Part shown: positions 167 to 32,264 of the stretch, in pieces
How the letters are laid out: each line of letters starts with the position of its first letter
Position numbering within the stretch: position 1 is the stretch's first letter
Assembly (NCBI RefSeq): GCF_000341005.1
Contig: NZ_ANBD01000153.1
Location: forward strand, 1 to 36,704
Direction of reading: 5' to 3'
DNA from: Nocardiopsis alkaliphila YIM 80379
Lineage (GTDB): Bacteria; Actinomycetota; Actinomycetes; Streptosporangiales; Streptosporangiaceae
DNA length: 36,704 nucleotides
Notes under the pieces: model-generated
What the model was told of the DNA's origin: nothing
The model's database searches: none
Seen by the model: only the letters and a program-made list of their open reading frames with translations
Program-made: the position numbers and the translations under genes

Positions 167-349
167 ATGACGACCAAGGAAATCCCCACGATCGAGCTTC
201 CCGCTCTCGACTTCGACGACATGGAGGTGATGAGCGTCCGCGAGGCGGTCGCCGTCCCGGAGACCGGCGCCACCAGTGGCTCCAGTTCCTGCACCTCCAC
301 CTCCTGCTGTGGCTCCAGCAGCTGCTGCTCGTCGGGGTCGTGCGGCTGA
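167..349 (+). CDS. Thiopeptide-type RiPP precursor peptide (60 aa; LazA-like leader, all-GSCT core)
   Basis: This is the substrate of the whole cluster. Residues 1-35 are an acidic leader with motifs LDFDDMEVMS and REAVAVPETGA, close to the lactazole precursor leader as I remember it. The core (about 36-60) contains only Gly, Ser, Cys and Thr: 12 Ser, 6 Cys, 3 Thr, 4 Gly. Cys can become thiazole, and Ser/Thr can become oxazole or Dha/Dhb. The first core Ser (S37) is a candidate for one half of the pyridine. ATG 167 is preferred over in-frame GTG 125 because AGAAGG lies 6 bases upstream and the leader then has normal length. It is the first gene of the cluster and is separated from the exporter by a stem-loop. 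The product structure cannot be read from sequence; a linear or macrocyclic polyazole remains possible. Confidence 0.93.
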   Translation: MTTKEIPTIELPALDFDDMEVMSVREAVAVPETGATSGSSSCTSTSCCGSSSCCSSGSCG

Positions 350-363
350 CCGAAGGTACGAAC

Positions 364-390
364 GGGCGGCCCCTCTCGGCGGGGCCGCCC
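364..390 (+). terminator. Intercistronic stem-loop after the precursor (attenuator or mRNA stabiliser)
   Basis: GGGCGGCCCC (364-373) and GGGGCCGCCC (381-390) pair perfectly over 10 bp around a 7-base loop, starting 14 bases after the precursor stop. No T-run follows, so this is probably a partial terminator or a 3'-end stabiliser. Such an element would let much more precursor mRNA than enzyme mRNA accumulate, a common arrangement in RiPP operons. The downstream genes show no other obvious promoter. Confidence 0.65.
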
Positions 391-451
391 CCACGGGTCC
401 CCGGATCACGCCCCCACTCCCCCGGCAACACGAGCACGACGAGGGCCGCAC

Positions 452-1369
452 GTGTACGCGATCAACGCCACGGACATCACCAAGGACTACGGGAAGGGAG
501 AGGTGCTCCACGGCATCTCCTACCAGGTACCCATCGGAGGGATCGCCGCGCTGCTCGGCCCCAATGGGGCGGGCAAGACGACGCTGATCGAGATCCTGGA
601 AGGTCACCGAGGACGTACCTCGGGCAGTGTCGAAGTGCTCGGTCTGGACCCCGGCAATCGCCGCGACTTCGCCGAGCTGCGCACCCGCATGAGCGTCGTC
701 CTCCAACAGACCATGTTGGAACCGGGCCTGTCGGTCCGCGACATCCTGCGCAGACACGCCTCCTACTACCCGAACCCGCTGGGGGTGGACGAGGCGCTGG
801 AACAGGTGGAGCTCACCGAGAAGCGGTCCGCGCTGGTGCGCTCCCTCTCCGATGGCCAGCGCCGCCGGCTGGACCTGGCCTTGGCCCTGACCGGGCGCCC
901 CGAACTCCTCTTCCTCGACGAGCCCACCACCGGACTGGACCCGGTGTCCCGTCGCCGCATCCGCGCCCTGGTCGCCGGACTGCGCGACAGCGGCACCACC
1001 GTCGTGCTGACCTCGCACGACCTCACCGAGGTGCAAGAGCTCGCCGACCAGGTGGACGTCATCCGCGATGGCGAGTTCATCGCCTCGGGCACCCCCGAGG
1101 AGCTGGTCCAGGGGTCGACGGCCTTCACCGTGGTGGAGTTCACCGTTCCCGAGGGGGTGGACGGACGCCTGCCCGAGGGCGCCACCGTGGTCAACGGCCG
1201 CGTGCGCATCCACACCGACGACCAGGACGCCGTGGTGGAACGTGTGCAGACCTGGGCCAGGGACGAGGGGACCAGGATCAGCGGCCTGACGATCGTGCCT
1301 CCCAGCCTGGACGACGCCTACGTGGCGATGCTGAACGACCCGCGGCTGGAGACGGAGAAGTCCGAATGA
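452..1369 (+). CDS. ABC transporter ATP-binding protein (DrrA-like, drug/peptide export)
   Basis: The 305-residue protein is a cytosolic ATPase that would power export of the mature thiopeptide and so give self-protection. It has Walker A GPNGAGKTT (about residues 36-44), the ABC signature LSDGQRRR, Walker B LLFLDEPTTGLDP and the H-loop LTSHD, all intact. The length and C-terminal extension fit the DrrA/CcmA-type subfamily, with one nucleotide-binding domain per chain. The GTG start has GAGGG six bases upstream. The stop overlaps the permease start in an ATGA junction, so the two subunits are translationally coupled. The substrate is inferred from position between precursor and modification enzymes. 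Confidence 0.93.
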   Translation: MYAINATDITKDYGKGEVLHGISYQVPIGGIAALLGPNGAGKTTLIEILEGHRGRTSGSVEVLGLDPGNRRDFAELRTRMSVVLQQTMLEPGLSVRDILRRHASYYPNPLGVDEALEQVELTEKRSALVRSLSDGQRRRLDLALALTGRPELLFLDEPTTGLDPVSRRRIRALVAGLRDSGTTVVLTSHDLTEVQELADQVDVIRDGEFIASGTPEELVQGSTAFTVVEFTVPEGVDGRLPEGATVVNGRVRIHTDDQDAVVERVQTWARDEGTRISGLTIVPPSLDDAYVAMLNDPRLETEKSE

Positions 1370-2256
1370 GCACCACCCAGACCGGCGCCCGCGGCGCGCC
1401 CCGCACCAGGCGCCCGAGCAGCTTCCTGCTGCACGTGGACGGAGAACTCAAGGAGTTCTGGCGTTCCCCCATCACCCTGGCGTTCATCGTGGCCATGCCG
1501 GTGATGTTCTACGTGGGCTTCGGGTTGGCGTTCCGCTCCCAGGCCGACGAGATCCGCGTGGTCGGTGAACACCAGATCACCCAAGGAAATCTGAGCTATG
1601 GCGGCATCCTGGGCTTCGCGCTGATGTCGGTGGCCTTCGCCAACGTCGCCATCGGGCTGGCCATTCGCCGCCACCACGGTCTGTTCAAGCGCTTCCGCAC
1701 CACCCCGGTCAAGCCGGTGACGGTGATGGGCGCCTACCTGACGAACACGCTGTTGACCACCGTGATCGTGTTGGCGGTGGTCACCGCCATCGGAGTGCTG
1801 GCCATGGGCGTGACCATCGACCCGGCACGTGTCCCACGACTGTTGATCGCCCTGCTGCTCGGCTTCGTCTGCATGGCCCCACTGGGCGCGGCCGTCTCAC
1901 TACTACCGCCCAACGCCGACGCCGCCGTCCCCGTCGTCAACGGCATCTTCTTCCCCGCCGCGTTCCTGGCGGGAGGGTTCATCGTCCTGCCCCTGGGTGA
2001 CACGGTGGCCGCCATCGTGGACCTGTTGCCGGGTCGCCCGCTCACCATCTTGATCCAAAGCTCGTTGGCCGAATCGGGCCCCGCTTGGGACTGGCCATCG
2101 GTGTGGTCGTTGCTGGCCTGGGCCCTGGTGGGCACGGTCATCGCGCTGCGCTGGTTCCGTTGGGCCTCCGAGCGGGAGCCCCGCGGCTTCGGTTCGGCCA
2201 AGGAGCGGTCCGCGCGCAAGGCGGAGTCGGCCGAGGGTGCGGAGGACAAGGGTTGA
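1366..2256 (+). CDS. ABC-2 type transporter permease, partner of the preceding ATPase
   Basis: This 296-residue membrane protein has about six hydrophobic segments, beginning with ITLAFIVAMPVMFYVGFGLA near residues 30-50, and follows the DrrB/ABC-2 permease plan. The N-terminus is polar and basic, and the C-terminus (about 275-296) is a charged Lys/Arg/Glu-rich cytoplasmic tail. The start is fixed by the ATGA overlap with the ATPase stop. Its own stop overlaps the TTG start of the LanB-like gene, so it sits inside the biosynthetic operon. It probably forms the membrane channel of the thiopeptide exporter; substrate identity is inferred. Confidence 0.9.
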   Translation: MSTTQTGARGAPRTRRPSSFLLHVDGELKEFWRSPITLAFIVAMPVMFYVGFGLAFRSQADEIRVVGEHQITQGNLSYGGILGFALMSVAFANVAIGLAIRRHHGLFKRFRTTPVKPVTVMGAYLTNTLLTTVIVLAVVTAIGVLAMGVTIDPARVPRLLIALLLGFVCMAPLGAAVSLLPPNADAAVPVVNGIFFPAAFLAGGFIVLPLGDTVAAIVDLLPGRPLTILIQSSLAESGPAWDWPSVWSLLAWALVGTVIALRWFRWASEREPRGFGSAKERSARKAESAEGAEDKG

Positions 2257-4925
2257 GCACACCTTCCTTCACCGTGGTGGAGGGTCCCTACCTGGTCTCC
2301 CGGTTGAACCTGTACCCCCACCGATGGTTGCGCCCCGAGCGGACCACGTCCTCCTTGGACGACCTGCTGGTGCAGGCCCTCGTTCAGGAGGAGGAGGAAC
2401 GCGAGCGGCTCCGCGAGGGCCTGTTGGAGACCCTGCACCTTCTCGCTCCCACCGTGGGCGAGAAGGACCGACGCGAGGTACTGGCCGCCAAGCGCGCTGT
2501 GTTCAACAGGCGTCCGCCCCGAGCGAGCCTTCAGGGACACCCGATCCTCGACGAGGTGCCCGCCCTACGGCGGTGGGCGGCGAGCCATCGACGAGCCGAG
2601 GACGTGGCCGCGCACTTGGACGCGGCCCACGAGTCGTCCCTGCGCGACGAACGCGCGGTACTGGCGGAGTGGGCGGGCGACCCGCACGTGGACCGGTCCA
2701 CCGCCCTGTCCAGCGCCGATCTGCACCGGGCGGTGGCGGCCCGAGCGGCCCACACGCGGACACCGGACAAACGCATGCGCAAGGCCGAAGCCTCGTTGGT
2801 CCGCTACTTCTCCCGGTCCACGTTGAAGGTCAGTCCGTACTCGCTGTACACGGCGGTGCACTTCGACGACCTGGAACGACCCTCCGGTATCGCCCATGCG
2901 GGTGCACCACTGCGTCTCGAACCCCACCCGGACCTACGTCGGCTGCTGGTACGCCAGGCCGGCCGTGCCCTGGCCACCGATCCCCAGGCCCGGTCGGGCC
3001 TGGAGTGGGTACTCACCGGTGGGGCCCGACGGATCACCGGCGTCGAGGCGGGTGCCGAGGACGGGGTGGAACGCCTGGTGGTACATCGTCGCCGGTGGGC
3101 ACCGCCTTCCTCGGGCCTGCGCGCCGAGGCGTTCGGGGAGGAAGAGGTCCGCCTCCCCCTGACCGGGAGTTGGGACCGGTTGATCTCGGTCCTGGAGAAG
3201 CGGGCGACCGCGCCGGTGCGGTTGGACGGACTGTGCGACGCGGTCGCCACGGACCTGGGTTGCGAGCCCGAGCAGGCCCTCGGTGTGTTGGACAAGCTGA
3301 TCGAGGCGGGCGTGCTGGTGCCGTGGGCTCCCGCCGCCGAACAGTCCCCCGATTACGTGCACCGTTGGCACGACCTGGCCCGGAGGCTTCCGGGTGAGGT
3401 GGCGGCCCGGGTCACGACCGCCTTCGAGACCACCGCGGAGGTATTGGCGGACTTCGCCGAAGCCGACGGCGCCGAGCGTGCCCGTGGGGTGCTGCGCCTG
3501 CAAAAGGCGTGGTCCGCGGCCGTGGGCGTCGAGGACTCGGCGACCTCCCCGGTGGTGGAGGACTGCCTGACCTCGCGCGGCGTTCCGGTGAGCCGTTCGA
3601 CGACCGCGCGATGGTCGGCCGATTTCGAGCGGCTGATGCCGTTGTTGTTCGCGCTGGACGACCAGCGGGTGCTCTCGGGGGCGTTGGAGCAGGTGTTCGT
3701 GGCTCGGTACGGCCGGGGCGGTCGATGCTCGGACCTGGACGCCTTCGCCCAAGACGCGCGCGCCGCGTTCCCGCTCACCCAGGAACTCATGGGCGGTGAT
3801 CCCGGTGCCCTGGCGGACGCGGACCAGGGCCTGCGTCGGCTGCTGGAAGCCCGGGCCCGCGCCGTGGCGCACCTCGTGGAGCTGGGACGCTCCGGCTCCG
3901 AGCAGGTCGAGATCGACCCGGACGTGGTGGCCGAGGTCGCCGAGGCACTACCGGAACGGGAGTTCTTCGCCCACCGTTCCCTCGCGGTGTTCGGCCAGGT
4001 CCAGGCGGCTCGGGAGGTTCCAGGCGCGTGCGAGGACGCGGTCGAGCGTTTGGTGGTCAACCACGTCTACGGTGGTCGCGCCCGGTACTTCAGCCGGTTC
4101 CTGGGGCACCTGCCACAGGAGGTGCGGCACCGGGTCGCCGAACACGTGCGGCGGGTCGCTCCCGAGGGCGCCGATACCGTGCACATGCGTTCGGCCTTGG
4201 GTTTCAACGCCAACCTCTCCCCCGCCTTGGCCGGCGAAGAGGTGGCGTTGCGGGACGAGCCCACCCTGCTGCCCGGGCCGAGCACCCGTGACCTCACCAT
4301 GGTCCATACCCCTGGCGGTCTGCGGCTGGTACGTGCGGACGGAACCGAGATCGACCCCGTCTACACCGGTTTCCTGGTGCCGCACGCGCTGCCCTACGAC
4401 GAGATGCTGGTGGCGATGGTGGCGGACTCGCCGTTCTTCTCCTTCGGCGACCTCGGTATCGACCTGCACGAACGCTGGACCGAAGAGGGATACCGGGGTG
4501 GGACGCCCCGGATCGGCTTCGGGTCGCTCATCCTGTTCCGTCGTAGATGGGCTCTGGACACATCGTTGTTCACGGCCCGGGACGGGGAGCCCGCGGCCGC
4601 GCTGCACCGGCGGATCAACGTCGAACGCGCTCGGCGGGGCCTGCCCGACGAGGTGTTCGTTCGCTCCCTTCAGGGCGCCCGGCTCGGACCGATGGAACGG
4701 GCCATGGCTCCCAAACCCCAGCACGTCGACTTCTTGAGCCGGTCGCACACCATCACCGCCGCCAAACGGCTGGCCCACCTGGGCCCGGCCCTGATGGCCG
4801 AGGAACTGTCCCCACACCCGCACGAGTCGGGGGTGGTGAGTCCATCCGGCCGGCACGCCGCCGAGGTCTTCCTCGAGCTGTCCACCGTCCCCGCCCGTTC
4901 GGGGACCCCGCCCTTCCCCCATTGA
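2253..4925 (+). CDS. LanB-type dehydratase, tRNA-Glu-dependent glutamylation protein (LazB/TbtB-like)
   Basis: The 890-residue protein matches the N-terminal (glutamylation) half of split LanB dehydratases. These transfer Glu from glutamyl-tRNA to core Ser/Thr side chains before elimination to Dha/Dhb. It opens with the typical EGPYLVSRLN segment, and residues about 187-212 carry RYFSRSTLKVSPYSLYT, equivalent to the conserved R-x-x-P-[FY] region of Lant_dehydr_N proteins. The C-terminal elimination domain is absent, as in thiopeptide systems, and is supplied by the fusion protein at 10892. TTG 2253 is chosen because GGAGG (2241-2245) lies 7 bases upstream and TTGA couples it to the permease stop. 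The longer reading back to 2085 lies inside the permease gene. Confidence 0.92.
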   Translation: MSTPSFTVVEGPYLVSRLNLYPHRWLRPERTTSSLDDLLVQALVQEEEERERLREGLLETLHLLAPTVGEKDRREVLAAKRAVFNRRPPRASLQGHPILDEVPALRRWAASHRRAEDVAAHLDAAHESSLRDERAVLAEWAGDPHVDRSTALSSADLHRAVAARAAHTRTPDKRMRKAEASLVRYFSRSTLKVSPYSLYTAVHFDDLERPSGIAHAGAPLRLEPHPDLRRLLVRQAGRALATDPQARSGLEWVLTGGARRITGVEAGAEDGVERLVVHRRRWAPPSSGLRAEAFGEEEVRLPLTGSWDRLISVLEKRATAPVRLDGLCDAVATDLGCEPEQALGVLDKLIEAGVLVPWAPAAEQSPDYVHRWHDLARRLPGEVAARVTTAFETTAEVLADFAEADGAERARGVLRLQKAWSAAVGVEDSATSPVVEDCLTSRGVPVSRSTTARWSADFERLMPLLFALDDQRVLSGALEQVFVARYGRGGRCSDLDAFAQDARAAFPLTQELMGGDPGALADADQGLRRLLEARARAVAHLVELGRSGSEQVEIDPDVVAEVAEALPEREFFAHRSLAVFGQVQAAREVPGACEDAVERLVVNHVYGGRARYFSRFLGHLPQEVRHRVAEHVRRVAPEGADTVHMRSALGFNANLSPALAGEEVALRDEPTLLPGPSTRDLTMVHTPGGLRLVRADGTEIDPVYTGFLVPHALPYDEMLVAMVADSPFFSFGDLGIDLHERWTEEGYRGGTPRIGFGSLILFRRRWALDTSLFTARDGEPAAALHRRINVERARRGLPDEVFVRSLQGARLGPMERAMAPKPQHVDFLSRSHTITAAKRLAHLGPALMAEELSPHPHESGVVSPSGRHAAEVFLELSTVPARSGTPPFPH

Positions 4926-4953
4926 TCCCCCAGACGAAGCGAGGCTGACCCCC

Positions 4954-6102
4954 GTGACCGTCGGACTCAGACTGACCTACTACGAAAGCGACAAGAGCAC
5001 GCTGCTCGGCGACTGCCTTGTGCCCGCCGCGCGCGAGGCCCGAGCCAGGGAGGGAATCACCGCGGCGTGGCTCCACCTGCACTGGCGGCTCGGCCCGCAC
5101 TGCGTGCTCTACCTGGACGGCGCTCCGGAGGCGGTGACCGGGGCCGCCGAGACCGCCCAGGCACGGATGCGCGCCTTCTTGGACCTCCACCCCTCCCGGC
5201 GGGACCTGGACCCGGCGCGATACGAGGAGTTCTCCCAGGCCATGGGCCGGATGGAGTTGGTGGAGGGCCCCTACGGTCCGTTGGACCCGGACAACTCCTT
5301 GCGGCGCCTGACCGGTGACCCCGTCGACACGTTCCTACGCGGTCCCGAGGCGATCGGGCTCAAGGGCCGGGTCCTCACCGACGGGTTGTCCCGAGTGACC
5401 GACCAGGTCGGTGGACGAGGCGGTGAACGGGCCGTGTTCGCGAACGTGTTCGCCGGGATGGGTGCGATCGCCGTCCGCTATCCCGACTGGGGTCTCAAGT
5501 CGGGCTACCAGGCGTTCCTTTCACATTGGAAGGAGCACTTCCACTGGTCCGACCCCCAGGGAAGGGCCCAGGAACGGTTGGCCCTGTCCTACCGGGCCCA
5601 ACGCCAGAGCCTGGTCACGGCCCTGCGCGGTGTCCATGAGGACACCGGTGAAGACCCCTACGCCGTGGCCTGGGGGGAGTGGGTCGACCGCTGGTTGCCC
5701 GAAGCCGTCGAACTGGCGAAGAAGGACCACATCCTGCCCTTCCCCCACCCCGACCGGCAAAAGACCGCGGCCCGGCTCGGCGAGGACGTCGAGGTGCGGT
5801 GGAGCGGGTCCGACGAGCGTTCCTATAGCGACTTCCACCAGGAATTCCGCAAGCTGGACTTCACCCGGCTCGGTGACGGGTACGGGTTCGCCGCCTACCG
5901 GTTCGTCATCAACTGCTTCTTCGACCTGCTGCCACTCATGGGCGTGGCCCCCATCCAGCGGTATTCGGTGGCCTACCTGTTCACCGAGGCCGCCCAAGAG
6001 GTGGTGGGCGAGACCTGGTCGGAGACGGTCCGCAAGGTCGTCGACCACCAACGGAGCGACCCCGAACTGAAGCCGACCCTGCCGTGGGTGGGCGATGCCT
6101 GA
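4954..6102 (+). CDS. Probable thiopeptide pyridine synthase (LazC/TclM/TbtD-like)
   Basis: The 382-residue protein resembles the thiopeptide-type bacteriocin biosynthesis family, a divergent relative of LanB elimination domains. The N-terminus has the family pattern of a beta strand followed by WLHLHWRLGPHCVLYLDG (about 35-52), where true elimination domains have W-F-x-R-Y-x-x-P-H-x-R. Gene order B-C-D-E-F and the separate canonical elimination domain at 10892 argue that this is the [4+2] cycloaddition enzyme. That enzyme joins two dehydroalanines into the six-membered azacycle, closes the ring and expels the leader. A GTG start with GCGAGG upstream follows a 28-base gap, the largest among the enzyme genes. 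The stop overlaps the next gene by 8 bases. The alternative is a second LanB C-terminal domain. Confidence 0.75.
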   Translation: MTVGLRLTYYESDKSTLLGDCLVPAAREARAREGITAAWLHLHWRLGPHCVLYLDGAPEAVTGAAETAQARMRAFLDLHPSRRDLDPARYEEFSQAMGRMELVEGPYGPLDPDNSLRRLTGDPVDTFLRGPEAIGLKGRVLTDGLSRVTDQVGGRGGERAVFANVFAGMGAIAVRYPDWGLKSGYQAFLSHWKEHFHWSDPQGRAQERLALSYRAQRQSLVTALRGVHEDTGEDPYAVAWGEWVDRWLPEAVELAKKDHILPFPHPDRQKTAARLGEDVEVRWSGSDERSYSDFHQEFRKLDFTRLGDGYGFAAYRFVINCFFDLLPLMGVAPIQRYSVAYLFTEAAQEVVGETWSETVRKVVDHQRSDPELKPTLPWVGDA

Positions 6103-7723
6103 GCACACCTCACCCCGGTCCCTCACGATCCCGACCCGGCTGAAGAGCGCCGTGCGCGCCCGTTCCCTGGCCGAGGAGGGGGTGGCGTTGAGCATGGGCG
6201 CCACCGCCGTCATCGTGCGCGGCGCCCAGGCCGAGACCGTATGGCGCGCGTTGGAGTCGACCCTTCGCACCGGGTTCGAACGCGCCACCTTGTTGGAGCG
6301 CTTCCCAGAGCGGGGTCGCCCCTTCCTCGAAGGGATACTCGACCAGTTGGAGGAGCACGGTTTCCTCCGTGACCTGGAACCCGAACTCGTCGACCCGTCC
6401 CCGGTCGAACAGGCCGCCTACGCACACCTGGAGTCGCTGACCCGACGTCCCTACGCCGCTTTGAACGCCCTACGACAGAGCACGGCCTGGGTGCGTTCGT
6501 CCTCTCCGCCGTTGACGTCCGAGGTGGTGCGCGCCCTGAAGCGGGCCGGCTTCGGACAGGTCCACGTCGATCCGAGCCCCGTCCCAAAGGGCCCGATCCT
6601 GCTCACCACGCGGCTGGAATCCGCTGATGGTGAAGGTGCCGAGCACCTGATCGCGACCGGGCGGGGCCTATGGTCGGTCGGTCCGCGCAACCGCCCCCTC
6701 AGCCCGGATCTGTCCGAACGGCTCCTCGCCTGGTTCGCCGGTCTGGAGGGCGAACACCGGGTTCCGGACCAAGCCGCGCTCCGGCTCACCCGGACCCTGG
6801 TGGCCGCCCAGCTGGCGCTGGCCCTGGTGGCTCACGTGGCTCGCACCGCCGAGGGCACCATCGCGGACCTCGATCCGGAGTTCATGGTGACCACCGACGA
6901 GTTGGTCAGTGAACCGCACACGTTCCTCCTGGCCGACCCGCTGGACCCCACCGAACTCGAGCGACCACCCGCCCTGGATCCGGCCGAACCACCGGAGGTT
7001 CCGGAACTCTTGGACTCGATCACCCACCTGTGGGACCGGGTGTTCGGTCCGGTCGCCGAGCCCCGGCCCGGTGAACTTCCCCAGCTTCCGGTCGGTCTCG
7101 CCCTGGCCGGTGACGTAGCCGGTTGTGGCCTCACCACCGCCCAGGCCCGTCTGGACGCCCTGCTCGGTGCCCTGCACCGAGTGGTGTGGCTTCCCACCGA
7201 TGCCCTGGTCGGACGTGGTCTGGGGTCGACCTCGGTCACCGCGATCGGTGCCGCCGTGGGCGATCTCCTCCAAGGGCTCCCCGAGGAGAGGTGGAAGGAC
7301 GTGGACGCACCCGACCCCTCACCCACCGCCCGACGTCTGTGGGCCGCGCTCACCCTTCGCTCGGGTGTACCCGCGAAACTGGTCCTACGTCGATTGGACG
7401 GCTCCGGCCCACACCGAGCACAGGTGTTCGCGCGTTCCTCGAAGAACCCTGCCGCCCCGGAGCGCCCCCTGGCGGGCACGAGTGTGGCGGCCGACGTCGA
7501 TTCCTGTGTCCAAGAGGCACTGATCCGCGCGGTCGCGGCGACGCTGCTCACCCAGGAGGCCCCGCACGCCGCCCTCCCCGCCCCGGCCACGGGCACCGAC
7601 ATGGCGACGGCCTCCCTCGCCCGATGGGCGTTCGAAACGGGTGCGGTCCGCGTGTCCGCTCCCAAGAACGCGGACCGTTGGCGTGGACTGGGAGTGCACT
7701 CGGCGGTGGCGACATGGAACTGA
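6095..7723 (+). CDS. RRE-containing E1/ocin-ThiF-like leader-binding protein (LazD/TbtF-like)
   Basis: The 542-residue protein is the likely partner of the YcaO cyclodehydratase. Residues about 15-95 look like an RRE (PqqD-like winged helix) domain: strands ending in TAVIVRGAQAETVWRALE, then helices through RPFLEGILDQLEEHGFLRD. This domain would hold the acidic leader and present the core. The remainder resembles ThiF/E1-like scaffold proteins of azole-forming RiPP clusters, with no evident ATP-binding glycine motif, as expected for ocin-ThiF-like members. ATG 6095 lies within the end of the pyridine synthase gene and the stop overlaps the YcaO start, so stoichiometric coupled translation is likely. 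Assignment rests on context and fold pattern more than on catalytic residues. Confidence 0.8.
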   Translation: MPEHTSPRSLTIPTRLKSAVRARSLAEEGVALSMGATAVIVRGAQAETVWRALESTLRTGFERATLLERFPERGRPFLEGILDQLEEHGFLRDLEPELVDPSPVEQAAYAHLESLTRRPYAALNALRQSTAWVRSSSPPLTSEVVRALKRAGFGQVHVDPSPVPKGPILLTTRLESADGEGAEHLIATGRGLWSVGPRNRPLSPDLSERLLAWFAGLEGEHRVPDQAALRLTRTLVAAQLALALVAHVARTAEGTIADLDPEFMVTTDELVSEPHTFLLADPLDPTELERPPALDPAEPPEVPELLDSITHLWDRVFGPVAEPRPGELPQLPVGLALAGDVAGCGLTTAQARLDALLGALHRVVWLPTDALVGRGLGSTSVTAIGAAVGDLLQGLPEERWKDVDAPDPSPTARRLWAALTLRSGVPAKLVLRRLDGSGPHRAQVFARSSKNPAAPERPLAGTSVAADVDSCVQEALIRAVAATLLTQEAPHAALPAPATGTDMATASLARWAFETGAVRVSAPKNADRWRGLGVHSAVATWN

Positions 7724-9528
7724 GAACACCCCGAAGGTCCACGGCGAATGAGCTGGTCCCGGTGGGAGCCACCCTGGCTCGGCCCCACGCCGTGGACCTG
7801 TCCGGCGGAACACTGCACGCCTCGATGGACGGGCCCTTGGCCCTCCTCGGCCCTTGGACGCCGACCGACGCACCCGGATGCTCTCGATGCGCCGGGCTCT
7901 GGCGGGTCGACGTCGAAGGTGAGACCGCCACGGACAGAGCCGCTCCCGACGAACTCTTCAGGCTCTGGGAGGACGTGTTCCGCGCCCTGGTCGCCGCGAC
8001 CGACCCGGCCGATCTGAGGCTGTCCCTGATCGCCTTGGACTGCCGCACCGGTCAGATCGACCGCCACCGCTTCATCCCCCACCCGCACTGCGAGCACTGT
8101 TTCCCCGGCGGTCGCGGACTGGCGGTGGACGACCTCGCCGACGCTCCGAACCTGGACGGTCCGCTACCGACGATCGGCTCCGTTCTGCGCACCCGGGCGA
8201 TGGACCGCGACGACCTGCGGGAGCGGCTGCTCGACTTCCGCTTCGGTCCGGCGGCACACATCTATCGGGACGAGGAGTCCCCTCTGGCGCTGATGACCTG
8301 CGAGGCCGTCTCCCCCGGCCGCACGACGCGCGAGGGCGGCTACGGACGCTCCACCCGTTTCCGGGCCAGTGAGGTCCCCGCCTTCTTGGAGGGGGTGGAA
8401 CGAGTGACCGGGGGCAGGCTCCTGTCCGGAGCCCCGACCGTCCACGGCTCCTACTCCGAACTGGCCGGAGACGCCGTCGACCCCGCTTCACTGGGCCTGC
8501 ACGAGGAGGAATGGTACGGACACCCGGCCTTCGACCCGATTCCCTACACACCCGACACCCGCACCACCTGGGTGTGGGGCTGGTCCACCCGGAACCGGCG
8601 CCGGGTCCTGGTTCCCGAGCACGTGGCCTTCTGGCACGCCGAAGCGCACGATCAGCGCTTCCTGTACGAGTCCTCCAACGGGTGTGCCGTGGGCGGCTCC
8701 CTGGCCGAGGCGGTGCTGTACGGGCTGTTCGAGGTGGTGGAGCGGGACGCGTTCCTGCTCGCCTGGTACTCGCGCACCCGGCTGCGTCGGATCGAGGGCG
8801 CCGATGATCCGGCCCTGTGCCACCTCACCGACCTGCTCACCGAACGCGGCCTGGGCCTGTCCCTGTTCGATCTCACCTCGGACCTGGACATCCCCACCGT
8901 CCTGGCGATGATCACCGCCCCGGAAGGAGCCGTCCGCGAAGGTCGGGCCCCCGCGATGAGCCTGGCCACCGGCACTCACCTCGATCCGCGGCGCGCACTC
9001 ATGGCGGCGGTCGAGGAGACCGCCACCAACGCCCTGATGTATCCCAAGTGGGTGCGGATGCGCGCTTCGGTGGCGGTGGAGCGGTGTCGTCCGATGCTCG
9101 ACGACTTCACACTGATCCGGACCCTGGAGGACCACACCGGAACGCACGGGCTGTGGGAGGCCCGGCCCCTGTGGGAGTTCCTCGAACACCCGAGCGGGCA
9201 GGTGGGGATGGGCGAGTTCACCGCGAGAGCTCCCTCCTCCTTCGCCGGGGTGGACCTGGCCGCCGTACTGCGTGAGCGTTTGGCGGCCGTGCACGCGCTC
9301 GGCCTGGACGTGATCGTGGTCGACCAGAGCAGCGCCCCGTACACGGAGGCGTCCGGTGTGCGATCGGTCAAGGTGATCGTGCCCGGCGCCCTACCCATGA
9401 CCTTCGGCCACACCCACCGGCGCACCCGTGGGCTGGAACGACTGACCCGTGCGTCCGATCTGTTCGAAGGAGGGATCCCGTGGGAGGAACCCGGAAAGGT
9501 GTACCCGATTCCACACCCGTTTCCGTGA
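7714..9528 (+). CDS. YcaO-domain azoline cyclodehydratase (LazE/TbtG-like)
   Basis: The 604-residue protein would use ATP to cyclise core Cys (and some Ser/Thr) to azolines. An N-terminal module holds two CxxC pairs, CSRC (about 55-58) and CEHC (about 127-130), a probable structural zinc site. The YcaO core contains ESSNGCAVGGSLAEAVLYGL and then EVVERDAF, the Glu-rich ATP/Mg-binding region, near residues 315-350. It ends in PIPHPFP, the proline-rich C-terminal tail characteristic of azoline-forming YcaO enzymes and important for their activity. ATG 7714 overlaps the upstream stop by 10 bases. The earlier in-frame reading to 7123 is an artefact of overlap with the previous gene. Confidence 0.95.
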   Translation: MELRTPRRSTANELVPVGATLARPHAVDLSGGTLHASMDGPLALLGPWTPTDAPGCSRCAGLWRVDVEGETATDRAAPDELFRLWEDVFRALVAATDPADLRLSLIALDCRTGQIDRHRFIPHPHCEHCFPGGRGLAVDDLADAPNLDGPLPTIGSVLRTRAMDRDDLRERLLDFRFGPAAHIYRDEESPLALMTCEAVSPGRTTREGGYGRSTRFRASEVPAFLEGVERVTGGRLLSGAPTVHGSYSELAGDAVDPASLGLHEEEWYGHPAFDPIPYTPDTRTTWVWGWSTRNRRRVLVPEHVAFWHAEAHDQRFLYESSNGCAVGGSLAEAVLYGLFEVVERDAFLLAWYSRTRLRRIEGADDPALCHLTDLLTERGLGLSLFDLTSDLDIPTVLAMITAPEGAVREGRAPAMSLATGTHLDPRRALMAAVEETATNALMYPKWVRMRASVAVERCRPMLDDFTLIRTLEDHTGTHGLWEARPLWEFLEHPSGQVGMGEFTARAPSSFAGVDLAAVLRERLAAVHALGLDVIVVDQSSAPYTEASGVRSVKVIVPGALPMTFGHTHRRTRGLERLTRASDLFEGGIPWEEPGKVYPIPHPFP

Positions 9529-10895
9529 CCGGTGGCCCGACCGGACGCGGATTCACCGAAGCCTTGGCGCACTTCCACGGCCAGTCCCACGACAAGGACG
9601 TCGCCCAGGTCGAGACGTTGTTCTTCGGCCCCGAGGTCTCCAACGGCCTGGCCCGACCCGTGCCGGGACGGGTCCACGCACCGCTGCCGGCTTTGGCCCC
9701 ACTGCGCGAACTGGACGCCGCAGGACCCGCTCTGGGCGGGCCGTGGTCCCCGGCGCAACGGCTCCTCGCCGCCTGTGTGGAAGCGGTTCGGGTGCGACGA
9801 ATCTCGGCGGCCGACCGGTACCCGGTGCACCGCGCCTACCCTTCACCTCGCGGACTCTTCGGGGCCGACCTGTTCCTGTTGCCGCACGTGGGAGCACAGT
9901 GGTGCGTGCGAGTGGATCCGCTCTCGCACGTGCTCCAACCCCTGACCGAAGCGGGCGTGCCCGCCGACCTGGAGTCGGCCCTGACGAGGGCTCGCGTGGT
10001 GGTGGCGGTGGACCACCGACGTTATCCACCCGAGTACGGGCGGCTACGACCCTCCCTGGCCCTGCTGGAGGGCGGCCACCTCTTGGCCACCTTGGGCCTG
10101 ACCCTGTCCAGGTCCGGGCTGAATCCGTACACCCACCTGGACCCGGGGCATCCGGCCTGCGCCGAGGCGCGTGCGCTCCTGCCCGAGGGAATGGAGCCGA
10201 GCGCCGCCCTCACCCTGGCCCCCACGTCCGACGCACACTCGGTGGTCCTACCCCCGGAGGTGACCGCGCGGGTGGCCGAGGTGACGGCCCGGCCGGACCG
10301 CACGCTGCGGCGCTGGTTGGACGAACGCACCAGCGGGGTCTCCACCGCCAACCTGGTGACCAGCACCCACGTCAGCCCCCAGGAGGGTTCGGGGGTGACG
10401 TCCGCGCTGATGGCGGCCCTGGACGCGGCCCGCTCCGCGCTCCTGGCACCGGACTCGCTACGCCTGTATCGACACGCCCTGGAGAACGACCGGGTGGGCG
10501 AACGCACGGTGTGCGAACTCCTCCCCGAGGGCGCCCAAGGGCTTCCTCGTCCGGTCCCCCGCACCGACGGAACCAACTTCTCCTCGACCCTGGGCCACAC
10601 CCTCGCCGTGGACTTCCCCGTCTGGGCCCACGCCCACGGCCGGTACGCCGAACCGATCCTGCACACCCTCCTCGGGTGGATCACCCAGTGGGGCTGTCTC
10701 GGAGCCTCCGCCACCGACCTGTGCGCCCGACCGATGCGCAACTACGTCGAGGAGGAGTGGGCCGCCGCCCTCGGGTTCGCCCCCGATCAGACCCCCGCCT
10801 ACCAACTGTGGGTGCGCGCCGAACGCGGCACCTACATGGACGTCCCCGTCGACGCCGAGGAGACGGACCACACCGCACCCCGGGAGACCTCATGA
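9480..10895 (+). CDS. Divergent SagB-type (nitroreductase-fold) dehydrogenase-like protein
   Basis: The 471-residue protein has a tandem SagB/nitroreductase-like layout. In the first half, YPSPRGLFGADLFLLP (about 120-135) stands where azoline dehydrogenases have S-x-G-G-x-Y-P, and GGHLLATLGLTLSRSGL matches the interface helix. In the second half, GWITQWGCLGASATDLCARP recalls the corresponding helix and strand. The glycine pair of the flavin motif is changed, so activity is uncertain. TbtE of thiomuracin clusters is the closest role I can name. The GTG start is well supported by AAGGAGG (9467-9473) six bases upstream, even though it lies 49 bases inside the YcaO gene. The stop overlaps the next start in ATGA. 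It is an addition to the laz gene set, which already has an oxidase domain in the next protein. Confidence 0.75.
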   Translation: MGGTRKGVPDSTPVSVTGGPTGRGFTEALAHFHGQSHDKDVAQVETLFFGPEVSNGLARPVPGRVHAPLPALAPLRELDAAGPALGGPWSPAQRLLAACVEAVRVRRISAADRYPVHRAYPSPRGLFGADLFLLPHVGAQWCVRVDPLSHVLQPLTEAGVPADLESALTRARVVVAVDHRRYPPEYGRLRPSLALLEGGHLLATLGLTLSRSGLNPYTHLDPGHPACAEARALLPEGMEPSAALTLAPTSDAHSVVLPPEVTARVAEVTARPDRTLRRWLDERTSGVSTANLVTSTHVSPQEGSGVTSALMAALDAARSALLAPDSLRLYRHALENDRVGERTVCELLPEGAQGLPRPVPRTDGTNFSSTLGHTLAVDFPVWAHAHGRYAEPILHTLLGWITQWGCLGASATDLCARPMRNYVEEEWAAALGFAPDQTPAYQLWVRAERGTYMDVPVDAEETDHTAPRETS

Positions 10896-12601
10896 CCCGC
10901 GCCTGGTCGGCCGTGTACGTGTACCTGCACCGCGGCCGTGCCGACATCGACACCTTCCTCCTGGAACACCTGGCCCCCGCCGCGGAGGAGCTGGTCACCG
11001 CCGGGCACGCCGACGCCTGGTTCTACCTGCGTTATTGGGACGGCGGACCACATCTTCGGGCCCGGTTCCTGAACGCCGACGCCGAAGCGGTGGCCTCCTT
11101 CGCCGACCGCATGCGGGTCCTGGCCGAGGAGACCTCCTCGACCGCGTTGGAACTGGACAGCGGTGACTACTACGCGAACCTCCCCGAGGCCGACCCGGAC
11201 CGGTGGCACTCCGACGGGGACGTGGTGGAGGCCGTCTACGAGCCCGAGACCGAGCGATACGGCGGATCGCGCGCTCTGCAGGTGTGCGAGGACTTCTTCT
11301 GCGCGAGTACCCGCATCGCGTTGGCGGTACTGCGTTCGGCCCCCCAACAGGGGCAGCGTCAGGTGGTGGCCACAGACCTGGCCACGTTGGCGTTCACGGC
11401 GATGGGCTTCGATGACGTGGAGGCGGTGCGTCAGTCCCGTGGCTACTTCGCCACCTGGGACTACTCGACGGAGGTGGCACGCGGGGACGGTCGGGCACGG
11501 GCGCAGGCCGAGAGACTCTTCCACTCCTCGCCGTCGCGGTGGTTGCAGCGACGCCCACGGGTGGAACGCCTGGTCGCGGGTGAGGGTTCGTCCACCCACC
11601 ACCTGTGGGACCGAGGGATACGCCAGACGGTACGACGACTGCGAGAGATCGACGCGCAGGAGGGTCTGAGCAACGGACTCGACCGGATCATGTGGTCCCT
11701 GCTGCACATGACCTGCAACCGGCTCGGTCTGGACATCGACGACGAACGCCGGATCGCCTGGCTGTTGTCCCTGTCCTACCCGCGTTGGGAACCGCCGGGG
11801 GACTACTTCGCGCCGGGGGTGGACGCACCGGACCGGCTGTACCTGGAGGCCGGCAAGTACCTGCCGGACACCATGGCCGGTGAGCACGCGCCGCGACTGG
11901 TGGCACCCGAGATCGATCGGGCCGAGGCCGCCGGAGCCCCGGTGGTCGAACTGCCCACCCCCGGCACACTGTCCATGTCACTGGACGAAGCGTTGGCCGA
12001 ACGCGAGAGCGCACACGGCGACTTCGGTGGCCGGATGACCCTCGCGGAGTTGTCGGACCTGTTGGGGCACGCGGCCGGGATCGGTCACGCACGGGCCGCG
12101 CGGCTCGGAACGCGCGGTTTCCCCCGCACCCATCCCTCACCGGGAGCGGCCTACGCCACACAGGTATGGGTGCTGGCTCGGCACGTTTCAGGGCTGGCGC
12201 CGGGGACCTATCGTTATCGGGCCGAGGGGCACCGGCTGTTGCGAGCGGACGGGCCCACTCCCGTGGATCGACTGACCGAACTCTCGCCCTTCCTGCGCGC
12301 CGAGGCCGATGGGCGCCCCGGGGTGGTGGCCGACACGATGGGAGCACTGGTGGTGCTGGTCGGGGACCTGGGCCGATTGCGCCAGGGGTATGGGCAACGG
12401 GCCCTGCGACTGCTGTACCAGGAATGCGGTCACGTGGCGCAGAACCTGGCGTTGTGCGCCACCGCGTTGGGGCTGCGTTCGCTGGTGGTCTCGGGGTTCG
12501 CGGACGACGCGGTCAACGCCCTGCTGCACCTGGACGGGGTGGACCGGACGGCGCTGACCCTGCTTCCGGTAGGAGCCCAAGAGCCGACCCGGACGCATTG
12601 A
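10892..12601 (+). CDS. Bifunctional Glu-elimination/azoline dehydrogenase fusion (LazF-like)
   Basis: The 569-residue protein joins two modules. Residues 1 to about 310 are a canonical LanB C-terminal elimination domain (SpaB_C, thiopeptide-type bacteriocin domain): an N-terminal WSAVYVYLH strand, then [18 protein letters not shown]. It removes glutamate from glutamylated Ser/Thr to give Dha/Dhb. Residues about 345-565 are an FMN-dependent SagB-type dehydrogenase with [29 protein letters not shown] and [20 protein letters not shown], the last being the family's typical interface helix. It oxidises azolines to azoles. The same fusion is known for LazF of the lactazole pathway. The start is fixed by the ATGA overlap with the upstream stop. 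It is the last gene of the cluster and a terminator follows within 15 bases. Confidence 0.9.
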
Positions 12602-19720: not shown

Positions 19721-19759
19721 TCGCCCGAACCCCCGTCCCACCCGAGCGTGAGAGTCCCC

Positions 19760-21856
19760 ATGCGCCAGCTCGCCGCTGACGATCCGCGTCGCATCGGCCC
19801 CTACCGGATCGTCGCGTTCCTGGGAGCGGGCGGTATGGGCCGCGTCTATCTGGGGCTGGACCGCGACGGGCGTCCCGCCGCCGTCAAGGTCGTGCGCGCC
19901 GAACACGCCTACGACCCCGCCTTCCGGGAGCGATTCGCGCACGAGTTGGCCCTGGCACAGCGCACGCACGGACCGAACGTCCCTCGGGTGTACGCGGCCG
20001 ACACCTCCGGCGAGGTGCCCTGGCTGGCCACCGAGTACGTGATGGGACCTTCCCTGCAACACCTGGTGGAAGGCGCCGGGCCGTTGCCCGAACGCTCCGC
20101 CGTCCTTCTCGGCCGTGGGATCGCCCAGACCCTGGTGGGCGTGCACCGGCAAGGCCTGGCCCACCTCGATCTGAAGCCCGGCAACGTCATGGTGGCCGCC
20201 GAGGGGCCCCAGCTGATCGACTTCGGTATCGCCCGGGCCGGCGAGGTCGACGACGCCGAAGGGGAAGGATTCACCGGTACCCCCGGTTACCTGGCTCCGG
20301 AGGTCGCCCGTGGCGAGGTCGGCGGAGCTCCCGCCGACGTCTTCGCGCTCGGCGGCATCCTCGTGCACGCCCTCACCGGCCGAGGCCCCTTCGGTGACGG
20401 CCACCCCGCCACCATCCTGTACCGCACCGTTAACTCCGCACCCGACATCAACGGCGTCCCCACCTCGCTGCGCGGCCTACTCTCCGCCTGCTTGGACAAG
20501 GATCCCAGCCGACGACCCACGGCGGAGGGGCTCCTTCACCTCCTCGGCGGCCCCCTCCCGCCGGCTCCGGAGGCGTCCGCGTGGTTGCCCCCCTTGGCCG
20601 TGGCGCGGATCGAGGACATCACGCGGCGCTACGGAGCGATCCAGCCCGACCCCGGGACGGGTACGAACAAACGCGGCCTTCTCGTGGTCGGTGCCGCCGT
20701 CGTGGCCCTCGGGCTCGTCGGCGGGTTCGGCGCCTGGACGTTGACCGATGCCCTGGGCGGTGGCGTGGAGACCGCCGGCGCCGTTGCGGGGGAGGACTCC
20801 GAGCAGGAGGTTCCCTCCGCCGGACGCCAGCAGTGCGACCCGACCGAGCACCTGGCGACGGAGTACGTGGACGCCGCCGAGGCCGACCCCACCATCCCCG
20901 GCGTCCCGGACGGGGTGCGGACCACCTTCTCCCACGACGGTTCCGTCCTCGCGGTACCCGGTCCTGGTGGCGTGGCGCTGTGGGACTGGGCGAATGGAAC
21001 CGAACTCGCACTGGTCGAAGCGACTCGAAGCGACGAGGACGGAGCCATCAGGTTCAGTCCGAACGACTGTCTCATCGCCTGGGCGAGTCCGACCGGAGCC
21101 CGGGTGTACTCGTTGGAGACCGGCGAGCTCACCGTGCACGCGCGGGGACGACCGTTGGAGGACGTCGCGTTCTCCCCGGATGGGACCACCCTCACCGTCG
21201 CCGATTCCGGGGAGGGCCACGAGGCATCGCTCTACGACATCGATCTGGACAGTGGTGAGACCACCCTGGTCTACGACCGCTCATCCGATGTCGACGAGGT
21301 CGTGTACTCACCCGAAGGCACCCACGTGGTCGGGCTGATCGGCCTCCTGGGGCGGCTGCACGTGTGGGATGGCGAAACGGGGGAGGTCGTCTTCACCGAA
21401 GAGGGGGTCCCCTCCTTGAACACCGGCTCCATGTTCGACCTCCTCGGTGAGGGAGAACTACTCTTCGGGCAACCCGGAGGCCCGGTCCACTACGACTTCG
21501 CCAGGGACGACGGGCAAGGATGGCAGTTCATCCCCGAGCCGGAGGAGGCCGAGGGTGAGCTCATCGAGTTCGCGTACAACCCCGCCACGCACCGCCTCTA
21601 CGCCTTCTACGCCACGGACCCCGAAGAGACCGGGCGCGACACGATCACCCTCGAACTCTTCGTCTGGGAGTACCGATCAGAGGACGAGTACGGCTTCGAG
21701 GTGCAACTGGAGGAAAGCGAGGTCGAACTAGAGCGACCCTCGCTGGGTCTGACCGTTCACCCCGAGGGTGAGGTGGTGGCCGGCTACGACACCGAGTCCG
21801 GACACGTCACCATCCTGGACCCGCTGACCCTACGAGAGCTCGACCACTTCGGCTGA
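19760..21856 (+). CDS. Receptor-like Ser/Thr protein kinase with extracellular beta-propeller domain (kinase 1)
   Basis: The 698-residue protein has a Hanks-type kinase domain (about 12-270): glycine loop LGAGGMGRVY (21-30), Lys43 in AVKVV, catalytic loop H135-L-D137-L-K139-P-G-N142, DFG at 154-156 and FTGTPGYLAPE. HLD replaces HRD, so it is a non-RD kinase, but all catalytic residues are present. A single membrane helix LLVVGAAVVALGLVGGFGAW lies near 305-325. The exported part (about 345-698) has repeated blades such as AFSPDGTTLTVADS, VYSPEGTHVVG and LTVHPEGEVVAGYD, typical of WD40/YVTN-like propellers, probably a ligand or cell-wall sensor. ATG 19760 is preferred to GTG 19748. It is first of three tandem paralogues. 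Confidence 0.92.
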   Translation: MRQLAADDPRRIGPYRIVAFLGAGGMGRVYLGLDRDGRPAAVKVVRAEHAYDPAFRERFAHELALAQRTHGPNVPRVYAADTSGEVPWLATEYVMGPSLQHLVEGAGPLPERSAVLLGRGIAQTLVGVHRQGLAHLDLKPGNVMVAAEGPQLIDFGIARAGEVDDAEGEGFTGTPGYLAPEVARGEVGGAPADVFALGGILVHALTGRGPFGDGHPATILYRTVNSAPDINGVPTSLRGLLSACLDKDPSRRPTAEGLLHLLGGPLPPAPEASAWLPPLAVARIEDITRRYGAIQPDPGTGTNKRGLLVVGAAVVALGLVGGFGAWTLTDALGGGVETAGAVAGEDSEQEVPSAGRQQCDPTEHLATEYVDAAEADPTIPGVPDGVRTTFSHDGSVLAVPGPGGVALWDWANGTELALVEATRSDEDGAIRFSPNDCLIAWASPTGARVYSLETGELTVHARGRPLEDVAFSPDGTTLTVADSGEGHEASLYDIDLDSGETTLVYDRSSDVDEVVYSPEGTHVVGLIGLLGRLHVWDGETGEVVFTEEGVPSLNTGSMFDLLGEGELLFGQPGGPVHYDFARDDGQGWQFIPEPEEAEGELIEFAYNPATHRLYAFYATDPEETGRDTITLELFVWEYRSEDEYGFEVQLEESEVELERPSLGLTVHPEGEVVAGYDTESGHVTILDPLTLRELDHFG

Positions 21857-21887
21857 ACCCGTTCCCCCTGGTAGAGCGAGGAGATCC

Positions 21888-23915: not shown

Positions 23916-23960
23916 GACCGAGTGCCCTCGGGACCGCGCATCGACACAGGACGAGAAACC

Positions 23961-26052: not shown

Positions 26053-27393
26053 TCAGCTCGCCCCGGTCATCCTCGCTACGAAGTCGAACAACCCCATGCC
26101 CCAGGCGAACATCACACACATGGCCATGATGACGAGGATCTCGGTCCAGTTCAGGGCTCTGCGAAGGGAGGCACGAGGGACGTCGTTCAACTTGACCCAG
26201 CTCAGGACGCTCAGCAGGACCCCGGCGAGCAGGGCCGCGACCGGAAACCAGGGACCGAACACCGGGTACTGCACCGTGACCGCGACACCGGCGGCGCCCA
26301 GGCCCACGACGCCCGCCAGGCGTAGGGGCAGCACGTGACGGATCCGGTCGAACAAGCGTGAACGCATGACCAACAGCACCCCGAGCAGACCGCACAGCAA
26401 CAGGTCGGGAAGACCGGTGCCGAAGTAGGCCAGCAAGACCGCGAAGATGCCGCCGGAGAGGGCCGTACCCATGACGATGCCCAGCAATAGACGGTCGGTG
26501 TTGGTGAAGGTCTCCTCGAACCGCTCCGTGGCCACCTGACCCGACCGGCCGACCTCATAGTCCAACCCGGACAGACCACCCATCACCATCGCCACACGCG
26601 GCAGCGCACCCACGCACAGGGCCAGCGCGATGCCCATCGCGCGCACACCCTGGACCGGCTCCGCGAAGATCCCGACCACGACCAGTACGCCCCCGGTCAG
26701 GGTCACCACCGCGACGCCGGCGATGTAGGGCAGACCGGTCTCGTGCAGGGACCAGCCGATCACCGCCACCAGCAGACCACCACAGAGCGCGATGGCCCCC
26801 GTGACCAACGGGGTGGGGCTGAACAGGAACCCGGCCGCGAGGACCGCGGTGGCGCCGCCCCACACACAGGCCGTCGCGAAGAGGATGTAGGCGACGGCCG
26901 GCAACGGTCGACGGGCCGCGAGCATCATCGTTCCCACCGTCAACAGCGTGCCGAACGCCGCCACCGCCAGATGTCCTGGTGAGGGCCGCAGCCACATCAT
27001 GAGGAACAGCATCAGCAGCGGGCCGATACCGCCCACGAGCAGGCCGAACGACAGCGTGGTCGTCGGGTTCCATATCCATGCGGTCTCATCGACGCTGTCC
27101 TCCACCGCTCCACGCACGTCATCGACGTGTTCGGGGCGGCTGGGGGCGACCACTCGGTCGAGCAGGAGTACGTCCCCGTCATAGACCTCCGCGCCCTCGA
27201 GTGGCTCTTCGGGACGGACTGGTCGACCATCGACCGTGGTCAGTGTCCAGGAGGCCGGTTCGGTGCTCTCCCCTTCGGCCACGCACACCTCGATGATGCG
27301 CGGCATGAGTGTGGCGACGGGGACGCTTCCCGGTAGCGCCAGGTCGGCCCAGCGCTGAGGTCCGGTGACCGTGACCCTGCAGTATCCGCTCAC
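26053..27393 (-). CDS. eccD: Type VII secretion integral membrane protein EccD
   Basis: The 446-residue protein has the EccD plan: an N-terminal ubiquitin-like (YukD) domain of about 85 residues, VTVTGPQRWADLALPGSVPVATL through VYDGDVLLLDR, a short acidic linker, then about eleven membrane helices to the C-terminus. EccD forms most of the membrane part of the ESX/type VII translocon and stands next to EccC there. The GTG start has GAGGG six bases upstream on the minus strand. It diverges from eccC across 149 bases. Length is slightly below mycobacterial EccD (about 470-510), as is usual for non-mycobacterial actinomycete systems. Confidence 0.9.
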   Translation of the reverse strand: MSGYCRVTVTGPQRWADLALPGSVPVATLMPRIIEVCVAEGESTEPASWTLTTVDGRPVRPEEPLEGAEVYDGDVLLLDRVVAPSRPEHVDDVRGAVEDSVDETAWIWNPTTTLSFGLLVGGIGPLLMLFLMMWLRPSPGHLAVAAFGTLLTVGTMMLAARRPLPAVAYILFATACVWGGATAVLAAGFLFSPTPLVTGAIALCGGLLVAVIGWSLHETGLPYIAGVAVVTLTGGVLVVVGIFAEPVQGVRAMGIALALCVGALPRVAMVMGGLSGLDYEVGRSGQVATERFEETFTNTDRLLLGIVMGTALSGGIFAVLLAYFGTGLPDLLLCGLLGVLLVMRSRLFDRIRHVLPLRLAGVVGLGAAGVAVTVQYPVFGPWFPVAALLAGVLLSVLSWVKLNDVPRASLRRALNWTEILVIMAMCVMFAWGMGLFDFVARMTGAS

Positions 27394-27542
27394 CCAAGAC
27401 CCTCTTTGTCGACTCGTGCGGTGATTACCATGCTTAAGGGATGTAACCGATGATAATTAGGCGATTCGCGGTGTTCACGAGATCATCTATAGCGTAGTCA
27501 CCTGAAAACGAAACCTTGCAGGTGGACGGAGAAGGGACCCCC
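27394..27542. promoter_or_regulatory. Divergent promoter region between eccD and eccC
   Basis: This AT-rich stretch, especially 27421-27510, separates two head-to-head secretion genes and should hold both promoters. TATAGC (27489-27494) is a possible plus-strand -10. I see no convincing -35 on either strand and no strong palindrome. Confidence 0.4.
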
Positions 27543-31574: not shown

Positions 31575-31607
31575 GGGCGCCCGTGCCCGGTAGGGGGTGA
31601 CCGCGGA

Positions 31608-32197: not shown

Positions 32198-32264
32198 CCC
32201 CGCGGCCCCGCCCTAGCCCGAGTCCCCTTCCCACCCCGCTCGCTCTTCGCCTCTGAGGATGACC

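Follow-up and report, generated by a model that had tools for sequence, protein, structure and literature searches.

Lactazole-like clusters make up about half of the predicted thiopeptides (251/508) and have one characterised member, whose function is unknown, according to the sections of PMC7210931 at our disposal. The same sections describe the roles of LazB to LazF, and the fusion that constitutes LazF, and report that LazC needs Ser1, Ser10, Ser11 and Ser12. Natural thiopeptide rings were reported in 2020 to range from 26 to 35 members, to which later exceptions may exist, and targets are known for 26- and 29-membered thiopeptides (PMC3917276, in part). Here we describe a locus that is, judged by its gene content, a complete lactazole-type thiopeptide set plus additions. 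It lies at the start of a 36,704-nucleotide contig of Nocardiopsis alkaliphila YIM 80379, a soil actinobacterium; we refer to this whole stretch as the window. In our reading, which we consider likely, the precursor gene of the window (A2) is the second of two tandem lactazole-type precursors, and their products would be two congeners with a 44-membered ring.

A2 is followed on the same strand by an ABC transporter pair, a LanB protein, a pyridine synthase, gene D, a YcaO protein, protein X and an elimination/dehydrogenase fusion (Table 1). The thiopeptide identity put forward in an earlier, sequence-only reading of this DNA is now strongly supported by both the precursor, which scores above the cut-offs of PF19409, NF033400 and TIGR03892 and has a Ser/Thr/Cys-rich core after its leader, and the enzymes. 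The LanB functions are split as in thiopeptides, with a glutamylation domain (PF04738) and an elimination domain (PF14028/TIGR03891); the YcaO protein (PF02624, TIGR03604) is accompanied by an azoline dehydrogenase (TIGR03605), and the elimination domain is fused to this dehydrogenase, as in a lactazole-type LazF. The pyridine synthase is TbtD-related, although its 140.9 bits lie below the cut-off of 325 for NF045556, the TbtD/PbtD equivalog. In a tree of pyridine synthases without LazC itself, which warns of long branches elsewhere, the window falls with Curtobacterium and Arthrobacter in a group of 12 rows (support 100/99), nested in a 23-row clade (99/95) together with lactazole-like loci of genus g70, presumably Streptomyces. 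The g70 cores in this clade resemble lactazole, for example SWGSCSCQGSSSCA. Gene D had no significant family match in Pfam or NCBIfam. The ABC pair T1/T2 suggests export of the product or a part in immunity. Among the genes identified in 167-12601 there was none for a ribosomal protein, EF-Tu or an rRNA methylase, which speaks neither for nor against the targets known for 26- and 29-membered thiopeptides.

Elsewhere in the window, a downstream acyl-CoA dehydrogenase stretch was conspicuous among the matches listed in a conserved-neighbour search. EccD-like, FtsK/SpoIIIE and EspA-like TPR genes at 26053-34922 probably belong to a type VII secretion locus, and beside them (19748-26000) lie genes for two Ser/Thr kinases with weak beta-propeller matches and for a similar protein without a kinase match.

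Table 1. Features of the thiopeptide locus in the window (positions counted from its first nucleotide)
Feature	Position	Strand	Basis
Last codons (Cys-Gly-stop) of upstream precursor A1, cut by contig end	1-9	+	TGC GGC TGA
Thiopeptide precursor gene A2, 60 aa	167-349	+	PF19409 2.3e-14, NF033400 6e-18, TIGR03892 5e-8
Leader, residues 1-36	167-274	+	Alignment; pN = 0 at codons 21-36 (19 A2, 17 A1 genes)
Core S1 to G24, residues 37-60	275-346	+	Ser37 invariant in ten distinct cores
Ser1 of core, proposed first Dha of pyridine	275-277	+	Invariant; inferred
GSSSCC, core residues 13-18, proposed closure Dha14-oxazole15-Ser16(pyridine)-thiazole17	311-328	+	Invariant in ten distinct cores
Core position 20, separates A2 (Ser) from A1 (Gly or Ala)	332-334	+	17/17 genomes with both
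10-bp perfect stem 3' of A2, possible attenuator	364-390	+	Stems vary in relatives
ABC transporter ATPase (T1)	452-1369	+	PF00005 2.6e-27
ABC-2 permease (T2)	1366-2256	+	PF01061 2e-18
LanB-type glutamylation enzyme (LazB-like), start uncertain	2253-4925	+	PF04738 4.9e-16
Pyridine synthase (LazC-like)	4954-6102	+	NF045556 140.9 bits; TbtD in PDB 3.6e-16; lactazole-type clade
LazD-like partner of cyclodehydratase (D)	6095-7723	+	Position only; position kept in relatives
YcaO cyclodehydratase (LazE-like), ATG at 7714 inferred as start	7714-9528	+	PF02624 1.2e-76, TIGR03604, TIGR03882
Protein X, probable double nitroreductase-fold, SagB/McbC-like dehydrogenase	9480-10895	+	Profile comparison; AF2 + Foldseek
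Glutamate elimination + azoline dehydrogenase fusion (LazF-like)	10892-12601	+	PF14028 1.3e-45, PF00881 7.8e-11; TIGR03891, TIGR03605

The precursor A2 ends in TSGSSSCTSTSCCGSSSCCSSGSCG. Translation bears out the claim that 272-346, exactly codons 36-60, encode only Gly, Ser, Cys and Thr (12 Ser, 6 Cys, 3 Thr, 4 Gly), and the six Cys and 15 Ser/Thr counted earlier are correct for this span (13 Ser/Thr over 278-346). These 25 residues are unmatched in length by any such run in the window's six frames, the runner-up having 10. The accompanying statement that unmodifiable residues occur in the known thiopeptide cores is incorrect, because PMC8448680, in the part available to us, gives the core of sulfomycin as SCTTTGCTTSSSSSSSS; the idea that the composition by itself made the core novel was dropped on the same ground. 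Fragments of the A2 core did not occur in the open-access literature searched. A macrocycle dense in azoles and dehydroalanines is a plausible candidate product.

The same reading had divided the core into two 11-residue repeats. These exist as text, and the shared GGCTCCAG start is present at 278 and at 311, but the repeat is weak, with agreement at 7 of 11 residues and 19 of 33 bases. Composition shuffles reached 7/11 in 1.5% of cases in the fixed register and in 21.5% in any register tried; two GSSSC in one core arose in 0.3%. For comparison we used ten distinct cores, hand-chosen and including that of the window, all of the SGSSS type with a pyridine synthase nearby, five of which come from Nocardiopsis/Curtobacterium and are nearly alike. 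The second copy is invariant across these cores, and the first is not GSSSC in five (GSSSS in four, ASSSC in one). Growth of the core by internal duplication thus finds no support in the DNA or in relatives.

By analogy with lactazole, the core most likely starts at Ser37 rather than at Gly38. Thr36 directly follows GA, as Ser1 does in lactazole-like leaders, and by the same analogy could be residue 1, giving a ring of 47; Ser37 is preferred because position 37 is Ser in every core compared. On the 3' side of A2, the hairpin was considered as an attenuator but set aside, the 111-nt stretch after the gene folding no better than shuffles (z 1.24) and the stems being variable among relatives.

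Protein X had no significant match in Pfam or NCBIfam, and its PDB matches were marginal, both with the single sequence (a telomere-complex chain, E 0.9) and with a profile (alanine dehydrogenase 0.047, McbC 0.72). In a profile comparison it aligned with F's dehydrogenase domain (E 6.5e-7, probability 92%). An AlphaFold2 model of modest confidence (mean pLDDT 67) gave five Foldseek matches at E <= 0.001, namely the 487-residue nitroreductase 3eo7 at the top (2.1e-9, but TM 0.49 and rmsd 12.6), two chains of 3hj9 and two BmdB/BmdC entries; McbC (1.1e-3) and ThcOx (6.5e-3) were weaker. We read X as a probable second dehydrogenase of the set with a putative double nitroreductase fold. It was found in the Nocardiopsis and Curtobacterium sets, on a Clavibacter plasmid (27%) and in one set of genome G044 (26%), and as a partial, weaker match at the end of the Arthrobacter locus. 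At E 1e-3 none was found in four lactazole-like g70 loci (L125, L126, L127, L129), the count covering four of five such loci, without the 3.6-kb contig L128. The X profile had weaker matches in distant thiopeptide loci (L130, L132, L139 and L140 at 41-82 bits; L141, twice, L138, L134 and L085 at 17-33 bits), so X-like proteins also occur outside this group; the strong matches in L049 and L087 are in part built in, since the profile includes both as rows.

A precursor match was present in 19 of 40 Nocardiopsis genomes, that of the window included, with tandem copies in 17, and absent from 21. A scan of GTDB genome contigs gave at least 20 loci, and among those listed are 14 in Nocardiopsis, one filed as Glycomyces fuscus, four in three Curtobacterium genomes and one in Arthrobacter terricola. 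A wider profile matched 26 of 345 genomes of the order, some weakly; the phylum-wide precursor profile reaches close kin only, since it matched 2 of 396 genomes, the window's own among them. The gene set also occurs in the same order on a mobilizable plasmid, pCL-A6099 of Clavibacter sp. A6099 (L177/L178), where it is followed by a TetR-family regulator and the core is SGSSSSNSSSCCGSSSCCSSS. As this precursor is already annotated as a 'thiazolylpeptide-type bacteriocin', the gene family itself counts as known.

Several other loci came to light in these searches. Three (L087, L085 and L144, in genomes G044, G077 and G202) hold two divergent thiopeptide sets back to back, each locus with two pyridine synthases; the two longer ones encode two YcaO proteins, but only one LanB was found, and the precursors number up to four (G044), their cores being very dissimilar. 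Locus L086 of genome G182 (about 14.8-15.6 kb) has three tandem precursors, SGSSSCESCSCCAVCSCCSVCST and kin, and no match to LanB, YcaO or pyridine synthase within a 20-kb stretch. Further, distant pyridine synthases in Nocardiopsis (G032:C113, G039:C7, C17; L141, L143, L138) probably belong to other thiopeptide clusters of the genus.

Within Nocardiopsis the core is almost frozen. Variation was counted in 36 distinct precursor genes, 17 A1 and 19 A2: the A2 core is identical in 18 of the 19 second-copy genes, and in all 36 the core varies only twice besides position 20 (Gly2Ala once, Thr9Pro once). Its codons do vary, and at four positions serine moves from one of its two codon classes to the other; because such switches are counted partly as non-synonymous steps, the core pN/pS computes to 0.15-0.16 rather than zero. 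In leader codons 21-36, pN is 0 against a pS of 0.29-0.36. The first-precursor core of three Curtobacterium genomes is identical to the A2 core over 24 residues, and in the two with enzymes the pyridine synthase is 44-45%, YcaO 46-47% and LanB 40% identical. A core conserved to this degree argues for a specific target or signal and not for a diversifying product. We consider it very unlikely that the cluster is silent or decaying: reading frames are open throughout, leader codons 21-36 show no non-synonymous change, and the core hardly varies while synonymous sites do. Such decay would agree with the lack of a precursor match in 21 of 40 genomes and with Curtobacterium aurantiacum CFBP 8824 (L046), in which a precursor and ABC pair, perhaps an immunity remnant, stand in a genome with no pyridine synthase match. 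It would also agree with the literature, where the titles and abstract openings listed on Nocardiopsis, Curtobacterium and Clavibacter thiopeptides and lactazole-like compounds, mostly from outside subscription papers, report no product for the cluster.

The evidence for a second precursor begins with the first nine bases of the window, TGCGGCTGA, which align with the A1 end of the closest relative; the A1-A2 gap is 157 bp in both. The genome of the window (G000) yielded no further part of A1, and in genome G021 A1 is broken likewise, its start ending one contig and its tail opening another. When genes are assigned by their ending, A2 ends in CCSSGSCG in 19/19 cases and A1 in CCSGGSCG in 16/17, the remaining gene having Ala2 and Ala20. 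The Gly/Ala20 gene is the upstream one in all 17 genomes with both. Over codons 16-54, A1 and A2 differ by 0.022 per bp within genomes, compared with 0.074-0.078 for orthologues between genomes. This is reversed in codons 3-15 (0.410 within, 0.196/0.185 between) and 55-60 (0.284 within, 0.095/0.099 between). For the middle tract, 9 of the 17 genomes show strictly less distance to their own paralogue than to every A1 orthologue, and for either flank none of the 17 does. The likeness of A1 and A2 within genomes apparently stems from gene conversion, position 20 being kept distinct.

The concerted evolution of codons 16-54 would also be expected of a gene-dosage duplicate kept alike by conversion, whose Ser/Gly20 difference is tolerated drift in the tail; this account is compatible with any ring. 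It would also suit Curtobacterium Ac-1395, whose second precursor appears broken, a case that disfavours a universal need for the pair. What speaks against it is that the position-20 difference is kept in 17/17 genomes with both genes, and that Curtobacterium Ac-1376 has its Ser20 gene before the enzymes and its Ala20 gene after them, at opposite ends of the cluster. We regard a dosage duplicate as a serious possibility, though on balance improbable.

To relate the core to a ring, we count 2+3(n-2) atoms for a pyridine joining Ser1 to Ser-n. This arithmetic of our own yields 32 for lactazole (n = 12), in agreement with the published ring, 26 for n = 10 and 35 for n = 13. Two sites in the A2 core have an azole-competent residue before the Ser and a Cys after it, n = 10 (26-membered) and n = 16 (44-membered). 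Ser5 is ruled out as a closure site, since LazC in vitro formed 14- to 62-membered rings and not an 11-membered one, as stated in the sections of PMC7210931 seen.

Provided that the product is a thiopeptide, closure at n = 16 has, in our estimate, a good probability. First, GSSSCC at core residues 13-18 is the same in all ten distinct cores, and positions 6, 7, 8, 9 and 11 vary. Second, S14-S15-S16-C17 matches Ser10-Ser11-Ser12-Cys13 of lactazole (PMC7210931, in part). SSSC is common to all seven lactazole-like g70 cores listed. Third, n = 16 is the sole site under the Ser-Cys rule in the A-type cores of G077, G202 and G044, and the N. prasina core, with the remaining genes present, has Pro at position 9, which cannot become an azole. 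Lastly, 8 of 9 cores from G044, G077 and G202 leave 7-8 residues after the last closure candidate. The G182 cores were left out of this comparison because their 20-kb stretch lacks the three enzyme matches; they carry CSCC twice, at 9-12 and at 15-18, and so would favour neither site, and their Val14/Gly14 breaks the S14 position.

Were the pyridine to close Ser1 to Ser10 instead, the product would have a ring of the classical 26-membered size (PMC3917276, in part) and a 14-residue tail. Ser10, too, is invariant in the ten distinct cores, with azole-competent residues at n-1 and n+1 in nine of them; T9-S10-C11 of the window fits such a closure, and the Arthrobacter and Clavibacter cores have SSSC at both candidate sites. 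Nor is the tail absurd, as lactazole-like g70 cores encode tails of 11-13 residues, which makes tail length no firm guide to closure. This reading is nevertheless unlikely in view of the Pro at 9 in N. prasina, the Thr at 11 in G077, G202 and G044, the invariant and lactazole-like motif at 13-18, and the short remainders in eight of nine cores of those three genomes. Less probable still, to the point of being hardly credible, is a linear azole peptide on which the pyridine synthase is inactive. The extreme richness of the A2 core in azole-competent residues and the extra dehydrogenase-like X would suit it, but Ser1 is invariant, and the loci examined in Nocardiopsis, Curtobacterium (Ac-1376, Ac-1395), Arthrobacter and Clavibacter have precursor and pyridine synthase in one set.

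Returning to closure at Ser16, and starting from what is observed directly (the gene content, the conserved core, the paired precursors and their likeness within genomes), we infer a chemistry, ring size, export and function of the following kind. The leader would bind the YcaO pair (D/E), and Cys and some Ser/Thr would be converted to azolines, which F and probably X would oxidise to azoles. LanB (B) would glutamylate Ser, from which the elimination domain of F would yield dehydroalanines. The pyridine synthase C would then join Dha1 (Ser37) and Dha16 (Ser52) into the pyridine, releasing the leader as an amide and leaving a ring of 44 members (2+3x14 atoms) from which a tail of eight residues extends. 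Export of the product, or immunity to it, would fall to T1/T2. A1 and A2 would thus give two congeners that differ only at tail position 20, Gly versus Ser.

A broader reading, to which we give somewhat less than an even chance, is that the cluster represents a natural family of 44-membered thiopeptides, above the reported 26-35 range, made as a pair of Ser20 and Gly or Ala20 congeners. The paired genes would be homogenised by conversion except around position 20 and the leader start, and one conserved target or signal role would have kept the core frozen in both Nocardiopsis and Curtobacterium, a near relative of it being carried on a plasmid. A near-frozen, duplicated core in about half of the Nocardiopsis genomes (19/40) points to a constrained role, and the core comparison yields a testable rule for predicting ring size from the sequence. 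The pair also provides a built-in mass tag: the computed gap between the A1 and A2 products is 30.011 Da with Ser20 unmodified, 12.000 Da with it dehydrated and 9.984 Da with it as an oxazole. Before any modification the two cores compute to 2110.631 and 2080.621 Da.

Compared with known systems, the locus shares with lactazole A (Streptomyces lactacystinaeus, lazA-F) the B-C-D-E-F set including the elimination/dehydrogenase fusion, the SSSC motif, a position 2 that is not azole-competent (here Gly2) and related pyridine synthases, as far as PMC7210931 was available. It differs in its 24-residue core with the S14-S15-S16-C17 motif at 14-17 instead of 10-13, in a predicted 44-membered rather than 32-membered ring, and in having two precursors, an ABC pair inside the set and the extra X. 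The Ser1-Ser12 ring of lactazole A has no counterpart, since residue 12 is Cys and the candidate closures give 26 or 44; read from its sequence, the cluster product is a variant of the lactazole type and not lactazole itself. The sulfomycin core is likewise limited to Ser, Cys, Thr and Gly (PMC8448680, in part), but its residue 2 is Cys, and it lacks a Ser-Cys closure candidate of the A2 kind. Streptomonospora litoralis also has one thiopeptide cluster with two precursor genes, lit11 and lit12; their cores are described as very different, fitting two known compound types (PMC8448680, in part), whereas A1 and A2 differ at one residue. The pyritides of Micromonospora rosaria likewise combine two precursors with a pyridine macrocycle, but differ, in the part of PMC9247985 available, in having no Cys, no azole-forming genes and 14- and 17-membered rings.
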